Positions 13,128 through 31,934 of a DNA stretch of 33,368 nt are shown piece after piece. Source of the stretch: a virus; the IMG/VR virus record IMGVR_UViG_3300025138_000174, positions 1 to 33,368 of that record; one strand, written 5' to 3'. The notes below the pieces were generated by a model. That model was given only the letters and a program-made list of their open reading frames with translations. It did not search any database and had not been told where the DNA came from. Positions within the stretch are counted from its first letter, which is position 1. Each line of letters begins with the position of its first letter. The position numbers and the translations under genes are program-made.

Positions 13128-13814
13128 ATGGCTGCAAACCACCACACTGACGATGTATTCGTTCAAAAAAGAAGACCTAAAAAACCCATCAAATTTAATG
13201 TACAGCTTAACGATGAACAAAAGATAGCTAAAGCAAAAATTATTCAATCACCCATAACGGTGCTTAGAGGAATGGCAGGATCAGGTAAAACTTTAGTAGC
13301 AACACAAGTAGCACTTGATATGTTATTTACTAAACAAGTAGAAAGAATTATAATTACAAGACCAACTGTATCAAAAGAAGATATTGGTTTCTTACCTGGG
13401 GATATTCGAGAAAAAATGGACCCTTGGTTAGCACCTATATACCATAATTTACATATGTTATATAATAAAGATAAAATAGCAAAAGAATTAGATAATGGAA
13501 ATATAGAAATAGTACCTTTTGCATTTATGAGAGGTAGAACATTTTTAAAAGCCTTTGTTATAGTAGATGAGGCACAAAATGTTACACATAACCAAATGGA
13601 GACCGTAATTGGAAGATTAGGAAAAGGCTCTAAAATGGTAATATGTGGTGATATGGCTCAAATTGATTTAAAAGACAAAAGAGAAACAGGCTTTTCCTTT
13701 TTATCTAGAATAGAAGAAAGTGTAGGAGGATTTAGTGTTTCTACTTTATTACAAAACCATAGACATGAAATAGTATCACCAATACTTAAGGTTTATCAAA
13801 CCTTTAGAGATTAA
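13128..13814 (+). CDS. phoH: PhoH-like P-loop ATPase
   Basis: A 228-residue PhoH-family ATPase. Walker A GMAGSGKT is at residues 48-55 and Walker B FVIVDEAQN at 143-151. Family-specific segments include RPTVSKEDIGFLPGD (78-92), FAFMRGRTFL (131-140) and a sensor-like ICGDMAQIDL. PhoH proteins are common in marine phages, where they are often called phosphate-stress or RNA-metabolism genes; their role in infection is not established. It has its own promoter-like motif and sits between the head and neck modules, separated by a terminator on one side and a late motif on the other, so it appears to be a single-gene unit. Confidence 0.93.
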   Translation: MAANHHTDDVFVQKRRPKKPIKFNVQLNDEQKIAKAKIIQSPITVLRGMAGSGKTLVATQVALDMLFTKQVERIIITRPTVSKEDIGFLPGDIREKMDPWLAPIYHNLHMLYNKDKIAKELDNGNIEIVPFAFMRGRTFLKAFVIVDEAQNVTHNQMETVIGRLGKGSKMVICGDMAQIDLKDKRETGFSFLSRIEESVGGFSVSTLLQNHRHEIVSPILKVYQTFRD

Positions 13815-16834: not shown

Positions 16835-18874
16835 ATGGCAGAGACAACATTAATATCTCCCGGTGTATTAACAAGAGAAAATGATTCATCCTTTATTGGG
16901 GCTAGACCTGTTACCTTTGGTGCAGCTGTTATAGGACCAGCAATAATGGGACCTGTTGGTATTCCAACGGGAGTTTCTACTTTCTCTCAATATGAAGCCA
17001 TATTTGGAGGATCAATAGAAAGTGGATCACAACAATACACCTATTTAAATTCAATTTCAGCAAGAAATTATTTTGCTCAAGGAGGACAATCATTATTAGT
17101 AACACGTGTTGTTACAGGTTCTTTCTCTGAAGCATCAAGCTCTATAGGTAGTACTTTAACTTCAGGTGCTTTAGTTAGCGGTGCTAATCAATTACTTAAT
17201 TCACAACTATCTGGAAGTTTTTTAAACATTTCAGGTAGTACTGGTGGAGTTGTAGTACCAAATGTCCCTGTTGGTGGTGGACTTGGATCAGGCGCAATAG
17301 CTAGTATAACTCTTGCAACTCAAGTAGAATCAGCTCAAACTTCATCTGTAACAAATATTACAATCACAACCCCAGGAACAGGATATCAAGTAGGAGATAC
17401 AATTAATTTCCCATCAGAATCTATAGGTGCTACAGTAGCTGGAGGTACTAATTTAGAATATCTTTTAATAGAAGATGATTTACAAACAACAGCCTCTTTC
17501 GAGATTAAAACAATATCTGAAGGTGAGATGATGAATAATTATCAATCAATAGACTCAGCAAATGGTACATTAGATAGTGGTTCAGCAAATAATCTTAGGT
17601 GGGAAATAGCTTCTGTAAACACATCTTCAGGACAGTTTTCATTGTTAGTAAGAAGAGGAAATGATACTTCAACACAAAAGGCTATATTAGAAACATATAA
17701 CAATGTATCTTTAGACCCACAAGCATCTAATTATATTTCAAAGGTAATAGGTGACACATACGAAACTGTAGAGCAAGATGGTACCGACTTTTTTGTTAAA
17801 ACAAATGGTAATTACCCACGAAGAAGTGCTTACATTTATGTTTCAGAAGTAGGTTTAGCAACTCCTTCTTATTTTGATAATAATGGAGCAGCAAAAAGCG
17901 AATTTACTGGTAGTTTACCAAAAGTTCAATCTGGATCTTTCCAAGGTGCTGAAGGTAAAAACTTTGAAAATGGAGATGCATTATTTAATGAAAATATAAG
18001 TGCAACCAATATACAAGGTATTGCACCAAATGATTATACACAATCAATTAATTTATTAAGTAATTCAGATGATTACCAATTTAACGTAATTACAGCTCCT
18101 GGATTAAATGCATCCCAACACTCATCACAAACAACAGGTTTAGTAACACTTGCACAAGGTAGAACTGATTGTATAGCAGTAATTGATATTGTAGCGTATA
18201 ACGCGTCAATCAACACAGTTACAACACAAGCAAGTGCTTATGATAGCTCATATGCTGCTACTTATTGGCCGTGGTTACAAACGATAGATGCCGGAACAGG
18301 ACAAACAGTTTGGGCACCCGCTTCAACATACATTCCTGCAGTTTATGCATTTACAGATGCTTCATCAGACCCATGGTTTGCACCAGCAGGTTTACTTAGA
18401 GGAGCTTTAGGAAGTGTAGTAAGAGCAGAAAGAAAATTAACATCAGGTAATAGAGATACTTTATACGAAGCAAATGTAAACCCAATTGCAACATTCCCAG
18501 GAAGTGGAGTTGTAGTATTTGGACAGAAAACTTTACAGAAAAGAGCAAGTGCTTTAGATAGAGTAAATGTACGTAGATTATTAATTGCACTTAAAGGATA
18601 TATCACACAAGTATCAGATAACTTAGTATTTGAACAAAATACAAATGCAACAAGAAATAACTTCTTAGCAAATGTAAACCCATACTTAGAATCAGTACAA
18701 CAAAGACAAGGATTATATGCTTTTAAAGTAGTAATGGATGCTACAAATAATACACCAGATGTAATTGATAGAAATGAGCTAGTAGGTCAGATTTATTTAC
18801 AACCAACTAAAACAGCTGAATTTATTATTCTAGATTTCAATGTTTTACCAACTGGAGCAACATTTCCTGAATAA
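16835..18874 (+). CDS. Contractile tail sheath protein (T4 gp18-like)
   Basis: A 679-residue sheath subunit, about the size of T4 gp18 (659). The N-terminus SPGVLTRENDSSFIGARPVT with GAAVIGPAIMGPVGIPTGVS after it is the classic sheath opening that includes the inter-subunit strand. The C-terminal domain contains RADCIAVID-like RTDCIAVIDIV (about 446-456), SYAATYWPWLQTIDAG and PWFAPAGLLRGALG. It then has the final conserved block VRRLLIALKGYITQVSDNLV and AEFIILDFNVLPTG. A segment with ITTPGTGYQVGDTINF (about residues 180-195) looks like a surface-exposed beta insertion. Its own late-type promoter motif precedes it, and the tube gene follows with another. Confidence 0.95.
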   Translation: MAETTLISPGVLTRENDSSFIGARPVTFGAAVIGPAIMGPVGIPTGVSTFSQYEAIFGGSIESGSQQYTYLNSISARNYFAQGGQSLLVTRVVTGSFSEASSSIGSTLTSGALVSGANQLLNSQLSGSFLNISGSTGGVVVPNVPVGGGLGSGAIASITLATQVESAQTSSVTNITITTPGTGYQVGDTINFPSESIGATVAGGTNLEYLLIEDDLQTTASFEIKTISEGEMMNNYQSIDSANGTLDSGSANNLRWEIASVNTSSGQFSLLVRRGNDTSTQKAILETYNNVSLDPQASNYISKVIGDTYETVEQDGTDFFVKTNGNYPRRSAYIYVSEVGLATPSYFDNNGAAKSEFTGSLPKVQSGSFQGAEGKNFENGDALFNENISATNIQGIAPNDYTQSINLLSNSDDYQFNVITAPGLNASQHSSQTTGLVTLAQGRTDCIAVIDIVAYNASINTVTTQASAYDSSYAATYWPWLQTIDAGTGQTVWAPASTYIPAVYAFTDASSDPWFAPAGLLRGALGSVVRAERKLTSGNRDTLYEANVNPIATFPGSGVVVFGQKTLQKRASALDRVNVRRLLIALKGYITQVSDNLVFEQNTNATRNNFLANVNPYLESVQQRQGLYAFKVVMDATNNTPDVIDRNELVGQIYLQPTKTAEFIILDFNVLPTGATFPE

Positions 18875-18914: not shown

Positions 18915-19403
18915 ATGGCAGTATTAGACCCAAACGAAATATTTTATACAGCATTTGAACCGAAACAACAAAACAGGTTTATATTGTATGTAGATGGAAT
19001 CCCTTCATACCAAATTAAAGGTATGGGAGCTGTTTCATTAACTCAAGGTACAGTTCAGTTGAACCATATTAACGTTGCAAGATACGTTAAAGGTAAAACA
19101 CTTTGGAACACAATTCAAATGACGTTATTTGATCCAATTACACCATCAGGTGCTCAAGCATGTATGGAATGGGTTAGATTACACCATGAGTCAGTAACGG
19201 GTAGAGATGGTTATAGTGATTTCTATAAAAAAGATTTAACTATGAACGTATTAGGACCTGTAGGAGATATCGTTTCAGAATGGATTATCAAAGGGGCTAT
19301 GATTACCGAAGCAAATTTCGGAGATTACAACTGGGATAATGAAAGTGCTGCTGTAGAACTACAATTAACAGTACAACCAGATTACTGTATCTTAAATTTC
19401 TAA
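18915..19403 (+). CDS. Tail tube protein (T4 gp19-like)
   Basis: A 162-residue protein, almost exactly the length of T4 gp19 (163). PKQQNRFILYVDGIPSYQIK (about 16-35) opens the tube beta-barrel. HINVARYVKGKTLWNTIQMT and LFDPITPSGAQACMEWVRLH are conserved tube segments. The end NWDNESAAVELQLTVQPDYC is the usual closing strand of gp19-type tubes. It polymerises into the inner tube beneath the sheath. The gene follows sheath by 40 nt and ends before a strong terminator, as expected for a highly expressed late gene. Confidence 0.93.
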   Translation: MAVLDPNEIFYTAFEPKQQNRFILYVDGIPSYQIKGMGAVSLTQGTVQLNHINVARYVKGKTLWNTIQMTLFDPITPSGAQACMEWVRLHHESVTGRDGYSDFYKKDLTMNVLGPVGDIVSEWIIKGAMITEANFGDYNWDNESAAVELQLTVQPDYCILNF

Positions 19404-19431: not shown

Positions 19432-19455
19432 GCTTGGCTTACGCCAAGCTTTTTT
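19432..19455 (+). terminator. Rho-independent terminator after the tube gene
   Basis: Stem GCTTGGC (19432-19438), loop TTAC, stem GCCAAGC (19443-19449), then six T. It shares a TTAS tetraloop pattern with the capsid terminator. Confidence 0.92.
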
Positions 19456-19505: not shown

Positions 19506-20234
19506 ATGAGTGAATTTAAATTCCCAACCGAAGAAGTAGAATTACCATCAAAAGGTTTAATCTATTCTAAAGACAATCCCCTATCAAGTGGTAAAGTAGA
19601 AATGAAATACATGACTGCTCGAGAAGAAGATATTTTGTCTAACCAATCTTACATCCAAAAGGGTACAGTATTAGATAAATTATTAGATTCTTTAATTATA
19701 GATAAAAACATTAATGCCGACGATTTAATAGTAGGAGATAAAAATGCCTTATTAATAGCTTCTCGTATTTTAGGATATGGTAAAGATTATGAAGTAAAAA
19801 TAAAAGGTGAATCTCATACTATAGATTGCTCTACTTTAGAAAATAAAGAATTTGATGAATCTAAATTTGAAGCAGGTAAAAATGAATTTTCATATACTTT
19901 ACCTTCAACCGACAACGTAATTACCTATAAACTTATTACGGGTCATGATGAAAAAGCAATAAATAGAGAAATAGCAGGTTTAAAAAGACTCCAAAAAGAT
20001 GCCTCTCCTGAATTATCTACTAGATTAAAACATATAATATTATCAGTAGACGGAAAAGAGGAAAAAAAAGATATTAGAGACTTCGTTGATAATTATTTTT
20101 TAGCTAGAGATTCCCGTGCTTTTAGGGATCACATTAAAAACACCCAACCAGATGTAAATTTATCCTATATTTTGGATAATGGAGAGGAGGCAGAGGTCCC
20201 TATTGGCCTAAACTTTTTTTGGCCTGACTATTAA
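19506..20234 (+). CDS. gp26-like baseplate hub / tail-assembly chaperone (possible frameshift donor)
   Basis: A 242-residue protein of the T4 gp26-type baseplate family. The N-terminal block VELPSKGLIYSKDNPLSSGK, followed by VEMKYMTAREEDILSNQSYI and TVLDKLLDSLIID, is diagnostic. It lies between the tube and tape-measure genes, the place of tail-assembly chaperone G in other tailed phages. Read to its own stop, the C-terminus is LNFFWPDY. The stop codon is only 12 nt past a run of seven T (20214-20220). A downstream frame without an ATG in its first 117 bases continues in the +1 (equivalently -2) frame, so a longer product of about 337 residues is likely made by frameshifting. It is preceded by a terminator and a promoter-like motif. 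Family confident; frameshift inferred. Confidence 0.8.
   Translation: MSEFKFPTEEVELPSKGLIYSKDNPLSSGKVEMKYMTAREEDILSNQSYIQKGTVLDKLLDSLIIDKNINADDLIVGDKNALLIASRILGYGKDYEVKIKGESHTIDCSTLENKEFDESKFEAGKNEFSYTLPSTDNVITYKLITGHDEKAINREIAGLKRLQKDASPELSTRLKHIILSVDGKEEKKDIRDFVDNYFLARDSRAFRDHIKNTQPDVNLSYILDNGEEAEVPIGLNFFWPDY
20211..20221 (+). other. Putative programmed ribosomal frameshift site (AAC-TTT-TTT-TGG)
   Basis: The gp26-like frame reads AAC TTT TTT TGG here. Skipping one base, or slipping back two, on the T run moves ribosomes into the frame GGC CTG ACT ATT AAA, which stays open to the TAG at 20518. An AGGAGG lies at 20185-20190, 23 nt upstream, farther than known stimulatory Shine-Dalgarno elements. 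No convincing downstream pseudoknot was seen by eye. Confidence 0.6.
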
Positions 20235-20520
20235 AGTAGCCCCTTTATTTAGGAAAAACTTATTTTCCCAAATACATCAAATATTATTTCATGGTAAAGG
20301 AGGATATGATTATCCTTCTGTCTACAATATGCCTATATGGTTACGTAAATTTACATACAGTGAAATGTTATCCCATTATAAGGAAGAGAAAAAAGCAAAT
20401 GAAAAGGCTTCTAATGGGGGTAAAGGTGCTAAAAACCTAGTTAACCCTGACGGTAAAGTTAATACCCCAGCATTTGCCGAAGCAAGTAAAGCATATAAAG
20501 GTAAAACAAGTTATAATTAG
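20212..20520 (+). CDS. Downstream frame of the tail-assembly chaperone pair (G-T-like extension, no start codon)
   Basis: The frame is open from just after a TAA at 20209-20211 to the TAG at 20518. Its first ATG is at 20329, yet the region before it is plainly coding: APLFRKNLFSQIHQILFHGK then GGYDYPSVYN run straight into MPIWLRKFTYSEM. This Tyr-x-x-Pro-x-Trp-Leu-Arg pattern recurs in small proteins at this position in other T4-like phages, to my recollection. Only CTG (20224) or ATT (20230) could serve as unusual starts. The natural reading is a frameshift extension of about 99 residues onto the gp26-like protein. The C-terminal part is Lys/Ala-rich and helical. A 63-residue protein from the ATG at 20329 would discard the conserved portion. 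Confidence 0.65.
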   Translation, partial: TFFGLTIKVAPLFRKNLFSQIHQILFHGKGGYDYPSVYNMPIWLRKFTYSEMLSHYKEEKKANEKASNGGKGAKNLVNPDGKVNTPAFAEASKAYKGKTSYN

Positions 20521-25868: not shown

Positions 25869-28800
25869 ATGGCAAGGTTAGTAGGTGAAGGAATAGAAAA
25901 ATATACAACAGATCAAATTAAAATCCGCCAACAAATAGCGGGTAGTGGTTTTGGTGATAGCACTAGGTCTGTAGATTTCCTTCAAATCCAAAATAATAGA
26001 AATGCCTGGTTAAAATTAGGTTCTTCAGTTAGGGTATTAACCGCTAAAGAGATGTTAGACGAACTTCAAAAACAAGAAGAATACAAAAACTTAACCCTAA
26101 AAGAGGTTGAAGATAGTAGAACAACTGGTGTTGATAGATTAAAAGATATTGGTCTAGACTTTAAAGGAAGATTTATGGGTAAGGGTTTAGCAACTGAAGC
26201 CGTATTATTTAATTCTTTATCTAAAGTAACATCTTCTACATATGGTGAAGATGAAAAGAAAACTACAAATGGTTCATATATTTCTAGATCAGGTGTAACA
26301 AACACCATTTCTGTTTGGAATACTAATAGTGCTTATGGTTTAGGTGGAAATAATCAAGGTTTAGTTCCTCCCCCGGGATTAATAGATGCTAAAATTGATG
26401 CTTTAAATAGGGGTTCTATTAGAAAGGCTACAGTTAATATAAAAGCACATAATAAATTCCAATTTGAATTAATAGAATTATTATATATAAGGTTAGGTTA
26501 CACTATGTTATTAGAATGGGGTTGGGATAAATACATAGGTGGTCAATCTAAAGAAATTAAAAAAATGGGTAATACCCTAATGGAAGATGTTTGGTTTCAA
26601 GATAATGAAGGAACCAATTTTCAAGATTTAATTCAAAAAGTAGAGTCTTATAGAAAACTATATAGTGGTAACTATGATGGTTTTATTGGTAGGGTTTCTA
26701 ATTTTTCGTGGGATTTTGATACCGATGGAACTTATAATATTACTTTAAATCTAATTACAGTAGGAGATGTTATAGAATCATTAAAAGTAAACCTTCCTAA
26801 ATTTTCAGTTAGTAAAGAACAAATTAAAACTGATCTTGAACGATATAACAATGATGACCTTAGAGAAAGAGATAAGGAAGAACAACGACTCACCGAGGAG
26901 TCTACAATAGTTACAAATGCAGGTAACTCAACTCTAGCTTATAGCCTATTTTTAGATATAATAAATCCTGGGAGTATAGGAGTAACAAAATGGAAGGGCG
27001 GAATAGAATCTAACTATTTTAATTTGTTTACTGGAGAAGAAACAACTCTTCAAACTAGGAAAACATATAATGCTGATACAAATCTAATAAAATCCACAAA
27101 ACCTACAGAAGAAGATTTTCTTGATAGGGATAAATATAGTTATTTTTTAACTTTAGGGGAATTACTTTCAAAAATAAAACAGTTATGTATTCATAGTACT
27201 AATGATACCCCTATAATAGAATTAGATAATGATATTGAGTCAAACATTATGTCCGCCTACCCTAATCAGATATCATTAGATCCTAGAATTTGTTTTGTAA
27301 AACCTACATTTTCAGATAATATTTCTGCTACAACAGAAACAGGCACAAATATAGCTACATACATTAATGTAGGATACCCTTCCCAAAAAGATTTAAAAAA
27401 ATGGTTTAATGTTGATGAGTGTAATACTGATTGTGTTTATGGTAAAACTATGAACATATATGTAAATTATGATTTTATTTCTACCTGCTTATCAAAATCT
27501 ACTAAAAAAGGAGAAGTATTTTTATATAAGTTTTTACAAAATTTATGTGATGGTATTAATTCTGCTTTAGGAGACATTAGTAATTTAGAACCTATAATCG
27601 AAGATGACTTTAAAGTAGTAATTCAAGATCAAAATAAAATTAGGGGTATTGAGACCTCACAATACTCAGGTAGATTTAAAGAGGATGAGGATGTTGATTT
27701 TGAGCTATTTGGATATAATATATCAAATTCAACTTCAAATATTCTTAGAAAATTTAATTTTGAAACAAAAATAACCCCAGAATTATCATCTATGATATCT
27801 ATAGGGGCGACGGCTAATGGTACTTCAACTAAAAATTATGATGCTACTGCTTTTTCAAGTTGGAATTCAGGTTTAAAGGATCAATACCAATTGAATTTAG
27901 TTGACCCAAAAGAAACATCTACCGATGAAATCCTTACTAAGGATGATGTATTAATGTTATCTAAATCCTTTGCAGAAGCAGATATAGATTCTAATGTTGG
28001 GCCAGATTGGATTGAGAGTTTAACTGGATATAAAACAACACAGGAAAGTAGTTTACAATTTAGGTCCGCTAAAGGTTTCACATTTAGGGGTGAAAGAGCC
28101 CCATGGGGTAATGATTTAGTTACTTTTAATGTTGGTGGTGAAAATAGTTATAGATATTGGGATCAGTATGTACAAGTAGCTGAAAAAAACAAAATTGCTA
28201 AAATTGCCAAAATTGATAAAGAAAAAGCAGAGGATAAAAAATATACTGATAAATACAATTCCTTTAGTGCAGACTATGTTAGATATTTAATCCAAGGTTT
28301 TGGAGGGAAGGCAAACACAATCCTAGAAACCAGACATATGTATTACGATTTAAACCCCGATTTTATTAAAGCAGGTAAAAAATCCTTTAAAGCATATGTA
28401 GATAAGATTGATAATGAAATATATAGTAGATATGGTGATGCTTCTACTAAAATAGGATTTATACCCTTAGATTTTAGTTTAGAGAGTGATGGAATAAGTG
28501 GGATAAAACTTTATAATAGATTAAATATAAGACAAAAACTTTTACCTAGACAATATCCAAGATCTGTAGAATTTTTAATTAAAAACGTAAACCATACAAT
28601 ATCCGATAATGATTGGTCAACGGAATTAAAAACACTTTCAACACCTAAAACATCAGCACACTCATTAAAAAAATTTAACTTTTTTGATATTATTAATGAT
28701 TCTCTTTCAAAAGATTCTAAACTTTTTGTAAATCCAGCACTAGCTAAATCTTTAACAACGGGGATAAATTTATTAAATAAAAATTCACGAACAGGTTTAA

Positions 28801-29762
28801 TATATGATACTGAAGAAACAACCAAAACTCAAATAGTACTACACCATACCGCGGGAAATTCAACTCCCAAGAAATATATTAAAGGTTGGCGAAAGAAATC
28901 ATTTCCACTAGCTACCCATTACATTATTCCTAGAGAAGGCCAAACAGAACAATTATATGAAGACAAATATTGGTCAAATCATTTAGGTACGGATTTATCT
29001 AATAACGCCTTTCTTCAAAAACATTCATTAGCCGTTGAAATATCAAGTTATGGGTACTTAGATTTAAAACAAAAAGGGGATAACTTAGGAAAAGATGCAG
29101 GAAATAAAACAGCAAAGGAAATAGGGTGGTATTCATGGTCTGGTCAAAAAATACCAGATGATCAAGTTGCTGAACCATATCGAATTTCAGGTAATGGTAC
29201 TATAGAAAGTTTTGTTGATAAAGTACCAAGTGGTTATAGAGGTTATTATGCATTCCAAAAATATACCGATGGTCAAATAAAATCACTTGAAAAAATACTA
29301 AGAGGATGGAAAAATAGTTATCCTTCAATCCCCTTAAAGTTAACTCCTGAAAACTATAAAGAAATGTTCCCAAATACAAAAACAAATGGAGAATATGACA
29401 TTTCTAAAAACGCATCAGGACAAGTACCAGGTTTATATACTCATAACTCATACAGACCAGATAAAGTTGATGTTTTCCCACAAAAAGAACTATTAGAAAT
29501 GTTAATGGGCTTAGATGGAGAATCAACTACCACAACATCATCATCATCTACCTTTACTTACTATCAGCAATTTGCAAAAGTGACCGAAGAGGTCAATGAT
29601 AAGGAAGTAAAGGTAACAATTGAATATGATGATGGAACAAATATAGGGACAGCAGTAGGTGAAGCTGTAGCAAAAAGTAGAGATTATAGAAAAATAGATC
29701 TCGCAGAAGCAGAAGCAACCCTAAAAGCAAAAGGTGAATTAGCAAACATATTCAACAATTAA
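25869..29762 (+). CDS. Giant baseplate hub protein fused to an N-acetylmuramoyl-L-alanine amidase domain
   Basis: A 1297-residue protein, the largest gene here. Residues 1 to about 970 form a hub-like region with segments such as FELIELLYIRLGYTMLLEWG (about 199-218). Residues about 985-1205 are an Amidase_2 / T7-lysozyme-like domain. IVLHHTAGNS (zinc ligand His992) is followed by ATHYIIPREGQTEQLYED (His1017), NHLGTD (His1038), HSLAVEIS (Glu1057) and YTHNSYRPDKVDVFP, with zinc ligands His1192 and Asp1201 and Lys1199. This is the expected H...H-x6-K-x-D pattern. It should cut cell-wall peptidoglycan during DNA injection, the task done in T4 by the gp5 lysozyme domain on the gp27 hub. A short Ser/Thr-rich linker (about 1220-1230) precedes a small C-terminal domain. 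gp27 similarity is inferred from position. Confidence 0.8.
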   Translation: MARLVGEGIEKYTTDQIKIRQQIAGSGFGDSTRSVDFLQIQNNRNAWLKLGSSVRVLTAKEMLDELQKQEEYKNLTLKEVEDSRTTGVDRLKDIGLDFKGRFMGKGLATEAVLFNSLSKVTSSTYGEDEKKTTNGSYISRSGVTNTISVWNTNSAYGLGGNNQGLVPPPGLIDAKIDALNRGSIRKATVNIKAHNKFQFELIELLYIRLGYTMLLEWGWDKYIGGQSKEIKKMGNTLMEDVWFQDNEGTNFQDLIQKVESYRKLYSGNYDGFIGRVSNFSWDFDTDGTYNITLNLITVGDVIESLKVNLPKFSVSKEQIKTDLERYNNDDLRERDKEEQRLTEESTIVTNAGNSTLAYSLFLDIINPGSIGVTKWKGGIESNYFNLFTGEETTLQTRKTYNADTNLIKSTKPTEEDFLDRDKYSYFLTLGELLSKIKQLCIHSTNDTPIIELDNDIESNIMSAYPNQISLDPRICFVKPTFSDNISATTETGTNIATYINVGYPSQKDLKKWFNVDECNTDCVYGKTMNIYVNYDFISTCLSKSTKKGEVFLYKFLQNLCDGINSALGDISNLEPIIEDDFKVVIQDQNKIRGIETSQYSGRFKEDEDVDFELFGYNISNSTSNILRKFNFETKITPELSSMISIGATANGTSTKNYDATAFSSWNSGLKDQYQLNLVDPKETSTDEILTKDDVLMLSKSFAEADIDSNVGPDWIESLTGYKTTQESSLQFRSAKGFTFRGERAPWGNDLVTFNVGGENSYRYWDQYVQVAEKNKIAKIAKIDKEKAEDKKYTDKYNSFSADYVRYLIQGFGGKANTILETRHMYYDLNPDFIKAGKKSFKAYVDKIDNEIYSRYGDASTKIGFIPLDFSLESDGISGIKLYNRLNIRQKLLPRQYPRSVEFLIKNVNHTISDNDWSTELKTLSTPKTSAHSLKKFNFFDIINDSLSKDSKLFVNPALAKSLTTGINLLNKNSRTGLIYDTEETTKTQIVLHHTAGNSTPKKYIKGWRKKSFPLATHYIIPREGQTEQLYEDKYWSNHLGTDLSNNAFLQKHSLAVEISSYGYLDLKQKGDNLGKDAGNKTAKEIGWYSWSGQKIPDDQVAEPYRISGNGTIESFVDKVPSGYRGYYAFQKYTDGQIKSLEKILRGWKNSYPSIPLKLTPENYKEMFPNTKTNGEYDISKNASGQVPGLYTHNSYRPDKVDVFPQKELLEMLMGLDGESTTTTSSSSTFTYYQQFAKVTEEVNDKEVKVTIEYDDGTNIGTAVGEAVAKSRDYRKIDLAEAEATLKAKGELANIFNN

Positions 29763-30665: not shown

Positions 30666-31934
30666 ATGTACTGGTTGATAGAAAATGAGGAGCAATTAAA
30701 GGTTTTATTAAATAGTGGTTTTAAAGAGGCATTTGTCGAAATAATCCCCTATAATGATACAATCCACCCAACTTTAAACAAGGTTAGCCTTGTGTATATT
30801 AGACCAATACACGCACATAAAGGATTTATGGTATGCGTTACGCACAACGAGAGTTTAAATGCGTTAGATACGGATGTATACACGTTATTGAGCAAATTTG
30901 ATGTGTTGTATTGCCGTGATAAGAAAGAGATACTACATTATTACTCTCTAAAAACTCTTTATGACATAACCGCACCACCTCATACGTATATACGACCAAC
31001 TACCAAAGCACATGAGATATTTTACAACCAACATAAGGATGAAATTTGCGTAAACGCGATTATCCCGATTGTTAAACATTATGAATTGTGCGAACACATT
31101 TTTGAAGATCTAAAAGCGAATATTAACAGAGAAAAAACTAAATATGATGAATTCTTTAATACTAAAGTATCCTTGGTGTTCAACTACCTCGAACGAAATG
31201 GAATACAAATACACAAACCAACCTTCGAAGAACACTTCCATAAAATTGATGGTGAACGAGCATACACTCAGTACAACCTTCGGACAACCACAACACGACC
31301 CTCAAATAAATTTAAAAACGTAAATTATGCCGCACTTTCCCACAAAAATGGATGTAGAAAAAGTTTTATCCCGAGCAATGGGGTATTTGTTGACATTGAT
31401 ATTAGTGCTTATCATCCTAGCCTGTCTTGTCGCCTCATTGATTATGATTTCCCCTCTGTTGATATTCATAGCCATTTACAAGCTTTATATAAGGTTGATT
31501 ACGCCAAATCTAAAGAATTAACATTTAAGCAACTATACGGAGGAGTATTCAAAGAATACAAACACCTAGAATTTTTTAAGAAAATTGATATATACGTAAA
31601 AGAACTCTGGAGTAAATTTGAAAGCGAAGGGGAGATAACGTGTCCGATTTCTAATTTTGTATATAAAAAGGAAAATTTGGAGGATATGAATCCACAAAAA
31701 CTTTTTAATTACTTGCTACAAAATTTGGAGACGTCAATGAACGTTTGTATATTATGGGATATGATAAAGATATTGAGAAATAAGAAGTCTCAATTGGTAT
31801 TATATACTTACGATTCGTTCTTAATTGACTGGGATGAAAGTGAAAAAGAAGTAATAGAAGATATAAAAAATATATTTACTAAATATAAACTGAATACAAA
31901 AACAAAAGAAGGTTATGACTACGATTTTAAATAA
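30666..31934 (+). CDS. Divergent family A DNA polymerase-like protein (palm/fingers)
   Basis: A 422-residue protein with weakened but ordered family A polymerase motifs. TTRPSNKFKNVNYA (209-222) matches the TGRLSS..PNLQNIP motif. CRKSFIPSNGVFVDIDIS (230-247) leads into motif A with Asp245, followed by VDIHSHL. KELTFKQLYGG (283-293) matches motif B, with Lys283, Phe287, Tyr291 and Gly292 at canonical spacing. VLYTYDSFLID (378-388) matches motif C, with Asp383 in place of the VHDE context. The usual Arg four residues before Lys283 is absent. Residues 1-150 may be a degenerate 3'-5' exonuclease-like domain; I see no DEDD metal ligands. It is shorter than Klenow-type enzymes (about 600). Its codon choice looks less A/T-biased than the structural genes (more CGN, ACG and GCG). 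It overlaps the next gene by 20 nt. Confidence 0.7.
   Translation: MYWLIENEEQLKVLLNSGFKEAFVEIIPYNDTIHPTLNKVSLVYIRPIHAHKGFMVCVTHNESLNALDTDVYTLLSKFDVLYCRDKKEILHYYSLKTLYDITAPPHTYIRPTTKAHEIFYNQHKDEICVNAIIPIVKHYELCEHIFEDLKANINREKTKYDEFFNTKVSLVFNYLERNGIQIHKPTFEEHFHKIDGERAYTQYNLRTTTTRPSNKFKNVNYAALSHKNGCRKSFIPSNGVFVDIDISAYHPSLSCRLIDYDFPSVDIHSHLQALYKVDYAKSKELTFKQLYGGVFKEYKHLEFFKKIDIYVKELWSKFESEGEITCPISNFVYKKENLEDMNPQKLFNYLLQNLETSMNVCILWDMIKILRNKKSQLVLYTYDSFLIDWDESEKEVIEDIKNIFTKYKLNTKTKEGYDYDFK

Follow-up and report, generated by a model that had tools for sequence, protein, structure and literature searches.

The window, by which we mean the whole stretch of 33,368 nucleotides analyzed here (IMG/VR record IMGVR_UViG_3300025138_000174, positions 1 to 33,368), contains a T4-type structural module with terminase, gp20 portal, gp23 capsid, sheath, tube, a gene pair and a large gene, and derives from a T4-like phage, probably a marine one. 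The pair, a gp26-like gene and a start-less reading frame called T, sits between the tail tube gene and the probable tape measure gene (Table 1). Profile searches with the latter gave no family match; its positional counterpart in Flavobacterium phage immuto carries the annotation tail tape measure protein.

Table 1. Coordinates of features in the tail region of the window
Feature	Position	Strand	Basis or remark
Sheath	16835-18874		In T4-type structural module
Tail tube gene	18915-19403	+	phrog_4542 2e-22, PF06841 2e-4; upstream of chaperone gene
Terminator-like hairpin	19432-19449	+	Separates the tube and chaperone genes
Short tail-assembly chaperone (TAC-N, "G"), gp26-like, 242 aa	19506-20234	+	phrog_150, PF12322, fold model
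TAA closing +1 frame upstream	20209-20211	+	Direct reading
Shift site TTT TTT TGG	20214-20222	+	Proposed +1 slip of P-site UUU 20217-20219, GGC 20221-20223 next
Start-less C-terminal domain ("T"), 99 aa, +1 frame	20221-20520	+	Coding selection, homology; proposed to be accessible through the shift alone
TGA ending -1 frame	20225-20227	+	Direct reading
Probable tape measure gene, 838 aa	20550-23066	+	Position, size, immuto counterpart

The hairpin between the tube and chaperone genes is strong (GCTTGGC-TTAC-GCCAAGC with a T-run), scores on both strands and could keep the chaperone level low relative to tube. Elsewhere in the window, a PhoH-like gene (13128-13814; PF02562, 4e-61) is placed between the capsid and neck genes. 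The 1297-aa baseplate-region protein encoded at 25869-29762 contains an Amidase_2 stretch (988-1069, below cut-off), which perhaps replaces the hub lysozyme of T4. A 422-aa protein (30666-31934) had no Pfam match and, by eye only, carries stretches resembling family A DNA polymerase motifs (DIDISAYHPSL, ELTFKQLYGG and LYTYDSFLID).

Reading frames and domains of the gene pair

In frame 0, the gp26-like gene ends CTA AAC TTT TTT TGG CCT GAC TAT TAA, with seven T at 20214-20220 and the stop at 20232-20234. The +1 frame is open from 20212 to the stop at 20518-20520; its first ATG is at 20329, and neither GTG nor TTG occurs earlier. Since this frame is closed by the TAA just upstream, any shift must fall between there and 20232. 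The -1 frame meets a TGA at once, so that a -1 slip would yield no long product; the downstream domain lies in the +1 frame, not in the frame reached by the -1 heptamers of lambda and the jumbo T4-like phages. When the sequence was re-read, the coordinates, T-run, stop, frame offset and first ATG of the original prediction were all exact. Two other uses of these bases were considered and rejected. An ATG at 20306, following AAAGGAGG, belongs to the third frame, and the purine run is accounted for as the codons of the conserved KGGYDY. As for the T-run acting as a terminator, the terminator scan gave a score to a weak hairpin at 20194-20209, but no such stem is visible by eye in relatives, for example L049.

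The short form of the window matched phrog_150 (2e-9) and PF12322 (7e-5, just below the cut-off of that family). All 36 of the 36 relatives searched matched phrog_150 (best 9.8e-26), and PF12322 reached 3.9e-22 among relatives, placing the protein in the T4 gp26 family. The short form and the T domain were modeled apart rather than as a fused 337-residue protein. With the short-form model (pLDDT 89.6), Foldseek found gp26-like viral models, and E-values for solved structures were above 1; a sequence search of solved structures with the short form gave no match. In a second alignment of residues 1-96 to solved chains, the top two of 839, both with middling Z, were 3klu (YqbN; Z 5.5, 89 residues, 4.2 Å) and the HK97 chaperone 2ob9 (Z 5.0, 82 residues, 4.2 Å), and the next chain had Z 3.7. 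We take YqbN to be a phage tail chaperone, as 2ob9 is named by its title; that the two best solved matches to the model would thus both be tail chaperones is suggestive at most, given the middling Z. The T-domain model is small and helical (pLDDT 74.5) and gave no informative structural match. The phrog_1854 family of P1 PmgB, a suspected tape measure chaperone (PMC9024508), was matched weakly by seven relatives (best 0.013). Zinc-ribbon-like CxxC pairs are present in the short form of L104-L118 and in T4 gp26 and gp51 and are lost in the window's group.

Conservation and coding selection in relatives

An IMG/VR search found 594 relatives, of which 80 were kept and 79 were readable beyond the gene; the frame relation was identical in all 79. 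Across the 59 distinct loci, the start-less segment had no stops in the +1 frame and 103 and 263 in the other two, and dN/dS was 0.23 in the +1 frame compared with 1.15 and 1.35 in the others. Across the stop, the triplet periodicity of substitutions is displaced by one base, and entropy minima fall on codon positions 1 and 2, those of frame 0 ahead of the site and those of the +1 frame beyond it. Of the 59 loci, 34 lack any ATG, GTG or TTG from the site up to the inner Met; in the rest, such codons are at scattered positions. The gene thus has a C-terminal extension with no start of its own, in a shifted frame and under protein selection, and the protein-like character first noticed in this stretch is borne out by the dN/dS and by the open frame in 59 loci. 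In one relative (L080, 2216-2310), the T domain ends after 28 residues and is full length in near neighbors, reflecting a contig error or a real truncation.

The 16 bases around the site, CTTTTTTTGGCCTGAC, showed zero variation in 49 loci. The invariance of GGCCTGAC is partly due to coding in two frames (FWPD and GLT). Two-frame coding does not explain the UUU before UGG, since TTC makes up 113 of the 569 Phe codons (20%) elsewhere in these genes and never precedes TGG at the site. The original prediction had looked to homologous loci for a conserved T-run, frame relation and missing start; the frame relation is kept in all 79 close relatives, no start is conserved, and the seven-T run is broken in some relatives.

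The site was also sought independently of protein, by scanning the 17-mer ACTTTTTTTGGCCTGAC through IMG/VR viral contigs as DNA only, which gave at least 92 readable loci. All 92 readable matches listed fell, in frame, at the 3' end of a gene identified as gp26-like by HMM (worst E 1.6e-14), and 91 of them run into a T-domain homologue in the +1 frame, the remaining one being cut by the contig end. Many of the T domains among these listed matches are distant from that of the window.

Direction of the proposed slip and competing readings

Re-pairing of every overlap codon was tabulated for each relative. A +1 slip with full re-pairing is available at the shift site in every locus, as UUU to UUU in most, UUU to UUC in GXN1, SP-15 and LR756508, and CUU to UUU in L062, L064 and L082; in L104-L113 (TTC TTT TGG) it is the sole possible slip. 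The bases preceding the site, CTAAAC in the window, are variable in relatives. No Shine-Dalgarno-like element was found at a +1-type distance from the site. For 25 relatives, folding gave no sign of a conserved stimulatory RNA structure, with a mean z of -0.04 downstream of the site and near 0 both upstream of it and spanning it; folding to a consensus gave nothing and Rfam nothing credible.

The +1 and -2 slips enter the same frame, with products that differ by one residue (337 vs 338). A -2 slip as in Mu, in which the Phe tRNA on UUU 20217-20219 would move back two bases to give 338 residues, has that phage as precedent (PMC5009743), and UUU to UUU re-pairing is perfect in the window and in all relatives with the T7 run, so that in the window considered alone -2 re-pairs as well as +1. 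Mu-type re-pairing throughout the group is not seen, however: -2 has no re-pairing anywhere in the overlap of L104-L113 or GXN1 (TTC TTT CGT), which keep the same arrangement, and fails at the UUU of LR756508, though weak re-pairing is possible at other codons there. Because +1 re-pairs in all relatives and -2 fails in several lineages without the T-run, +1 is favored and a -2 slip appears unlikely. The original prediction, which cited the -2 of Mu and left +1 and -2 open, was right about the downstream frame, and the comparison favors +1. The same broken runs argue against transcriptional slippage, in which RNA polymerase would drop one T or add two in the T7 run so that some mRNAs are read through. 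Runs of seven T are possible slippage sites in general, yet the arrangement is kept where the run is broken, in L062, L064 and L082 (TTTCTTTGG), L104-L118 (TTCTTTTGG), GXN1 and LR756508, leaving this route very improbable.

Separate translation of the T domain, from a non-standard start or by re-initiation past the stop at 20232, would be in keeping with relatives L114, L119 and Cygsa01, where an ATG coincides with the gp26 stop or closely follows it; the domain can exist alone. In the +1 clade, however, no ATG, GTG or TTG is conserved, the conserved GLT motif precedes the stop and comes right behind the shift site, the ATT at 20230 is not kept in relatives, and the relatives with an own start have lost the shift site; we consider separate translation in the window highly improbable. 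Homopolymers are prone to error, and the original prediction named an assembly or sequencing error in the T-run as a possible refutation. The same seven T recur, however, across many contigs and samples that are independent of each other, complete genomes of isolates (for example Microcystis phage Mel-JY01) have them too, and purifying selection on the T segment speaks against a decayed gene. With the frame relation kept in 79 of 79 relatives, error and decay are refuted and their probability is negligible.

The reading that agrees best with the frames, the selection and the conserved site is that the gp26-like gene very probably encodes a tail-assembly chaperone in two sizes, of 242 and 337 residues, through a +1 programmed frameshift. 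The G and G-T type product of about 337 residues first proposed at this position between tube and tape measure genes is thereby supported. Most ribosomes would stop at 20232 and release the short form. In a minority, the ribosome would slip forward by one base when UUU 20217-20219 occupies the P site and the A-site codon UGG is still unread, the Phe tRNA would re-pair with UUU 20218-20220 and GGC would be read next, with translation then continuing to 20518 to give the long form with its extra helical domain. By analogy with lambda gpG and gpGT, the short part may coat the tape measure protein and the extra domain may recruit tube subunits. The sequences themselves display the pair of frames, selection for coding, a conserved site and homology between the domains; occurrence of the shift, its +1 direction, its rate and the assembly roles are what we infer here.

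Distribution of the arrangement and comparison with known systems

The +1 arrangement also occurs in Flavobacterium phage immuto, Mel-JY01, LR756508, GXN1, SP-15, LIS04 and RM378. Jumbo T4-like phages and Vibrio phage Bakedbeans have a homologous domain in the -1 frame, with U UUU UUC or U UUU UUU as the site. Profile comparison of the +1 and -1 phages gave 1.7e-14 for the short parts and 4.5e-8 for the T parts (these and the following are single-pair E-values, uncorrected for a library). Direct profile links between the window group and T4 were not significant, and the chain passes through intermediates, from the window group to the jumbo group (1.7e-14), the Vibrio/cyano group (3.8e-12) and T4 gp26 (2.9e-18). 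T4 gp26 matched the N-terminal part of gp51 (1.1e-7), and the C-terminal part of gp51 matched the T domain of Bakedbeans, Cygsa01 and S-SCSM1 (1.2e-7), so that T4 gp51 resembles, by sequence comparison, a gp26-like part with a T domain attached behind it. The prediction that gp26 is the T4-lineage counterpart of chaperone G is supported by this chain. In S-SCSM1 (L124, 2685-2874), the 54-aa cyanophage "gp51" is a T domain that lies in the +1 frame and has an ATG of its own; its frame is open back to TCT TTT TTC GCT TAG, and it may be expressed by a shift, its own start or both. The AM101 record labels gp26 and gp51 both as tape measure assembly chaperones.

Three relatives, L114, L119 and Cygsa01, have an own ATG for the T domain. 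In L114 and L119 the domain is in another frame, the ATG is just after the gp26 stop, and the dual-coded site is gone or out of use, from which it follows that a separate T product can work; the two constitute a natural control for loss of the shift site. Own-start relatives had been named as a possible refutation and were found, but in the tree these two are nested in the +1 clade beside immuto, which fits loss of the shift device there and not its absence in the window. The tree contains five kinds of arrangement with at least 7 label changes; its deep branches are long and some are unsure. Because four routes to the same domain pair (+1 shift, -1 shift, own start, fusion) occur among the relatives, one tree suffices to follow the change from one mechanism to another. 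Novelty appears to lie in the +1 variant, with its deep conservation, and in how it relates to the -1, own-start and duplicated relatives. A +1 variant with a conserved site was not found in the literature searched, to which the 2022 paper discussed below contributes through citations and may itself mention +1; the search likewise gave nothing on tail-chaperone frameshifting in Flavobacterium phages, Bacteroidetes phages or SP-15.

Across scores of contigs the +1 site hardly varies, and it would provide a simple forward-slip signal. More tentatively, UUU_UGG (also CUU_UGG) might be a distinct +1 signal for which a sense codon suffices and no stop, Shine-Dalgarno element or RNA structure is needed, in phages whose hosts may be Bacteroidota, with a rate perhaps set by slow UGG decoding or the nascent peptide, and one chaperone family might have moved between +1 shift, -1 shift, separate start and duplication with in-frame fusion. 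The comparison also corrects annotation, since the records of immuto, SP-15, LIS04, GXN1 and Mel-JY01 either lack the long form or give it truncated.

Release factor 2 (prfB) is made by a +1 frameshift at CUU_UGA. The window resembles prfB in that a P-site YUU with U behind it would slip forward onto UUU, and L062, L064 and L082 carry the same CUU before U; it differs in that the A site holds the sense codon UGG instead of the stop UGA and that no Shine-Dalgarno-like sequence lies 3 nt upstream. Tail-chaperone frameshifting was described in a 2016 review as conserved, with T4 the exception (PMC5009743). The present proposal was at first thought not to be described for gp26 families, but Vladimirov, Gautam and Davidson (2022, Virology 566:9, as cited in PMC10885494 and PMC12846349) had already identified the tail-assembly chaperones of T4-like phages as gp26 and gp51, so that the gp26/gp51 homology reported here confirms known work. 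That paper is also cited for a short copy plus a fused long copy, with gp51 of T4 itself as the long form encoded by a separate fused gene (PMC10885494), and for poly-T -1 sites (PMC12846349). The homology chain places T4 gp26 and gp51 in the same family as the window pair; T4 has a pair of genes, of which one is already an in-frame fusion, and uses no shift, whereas in the window both products would come from one gene by a +1 shift. Like the window, the jumbo T4-like phages 121Q, RaK2, CBB, GAP32, Munch-like L099, Cassandra, Phosso, Atu_ph07, SCTP-2, XacN1 and CM1, together with Bakedbeans, have gp26 followed by a homologous, mostly start-less domain (121Q, Atu_ph07 and Phosso additionally carry an overlapping ATG), but there a classic slippery heptamer of the -1 type is present and the domain is in the -1 frame.

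Lambda gpG/gpGT and most long-tailed phages likewise have a chaperone of two sizes between tube and tape measure (Xu 2004; PMC5009743); the lambda shift is -1, and no sequence match was found between these chaperones and the window. In the Vandenendeviridae and Andersonviridae, a poly-T site at the end of the short chaperone (GTTTTT) and a start-less extension are as in the window, and the direction is -1 (PMC12846349, 2025). The long form of Mu is in the +1 frame like that of the window, but is reached by a backward slip of two (PMC5009743). In HSTV-2, a halophilic archaeal myovirus, the tail chaperone shift is very likely +1 (PMC5009743), with the long form in the +1 frame as in the window.
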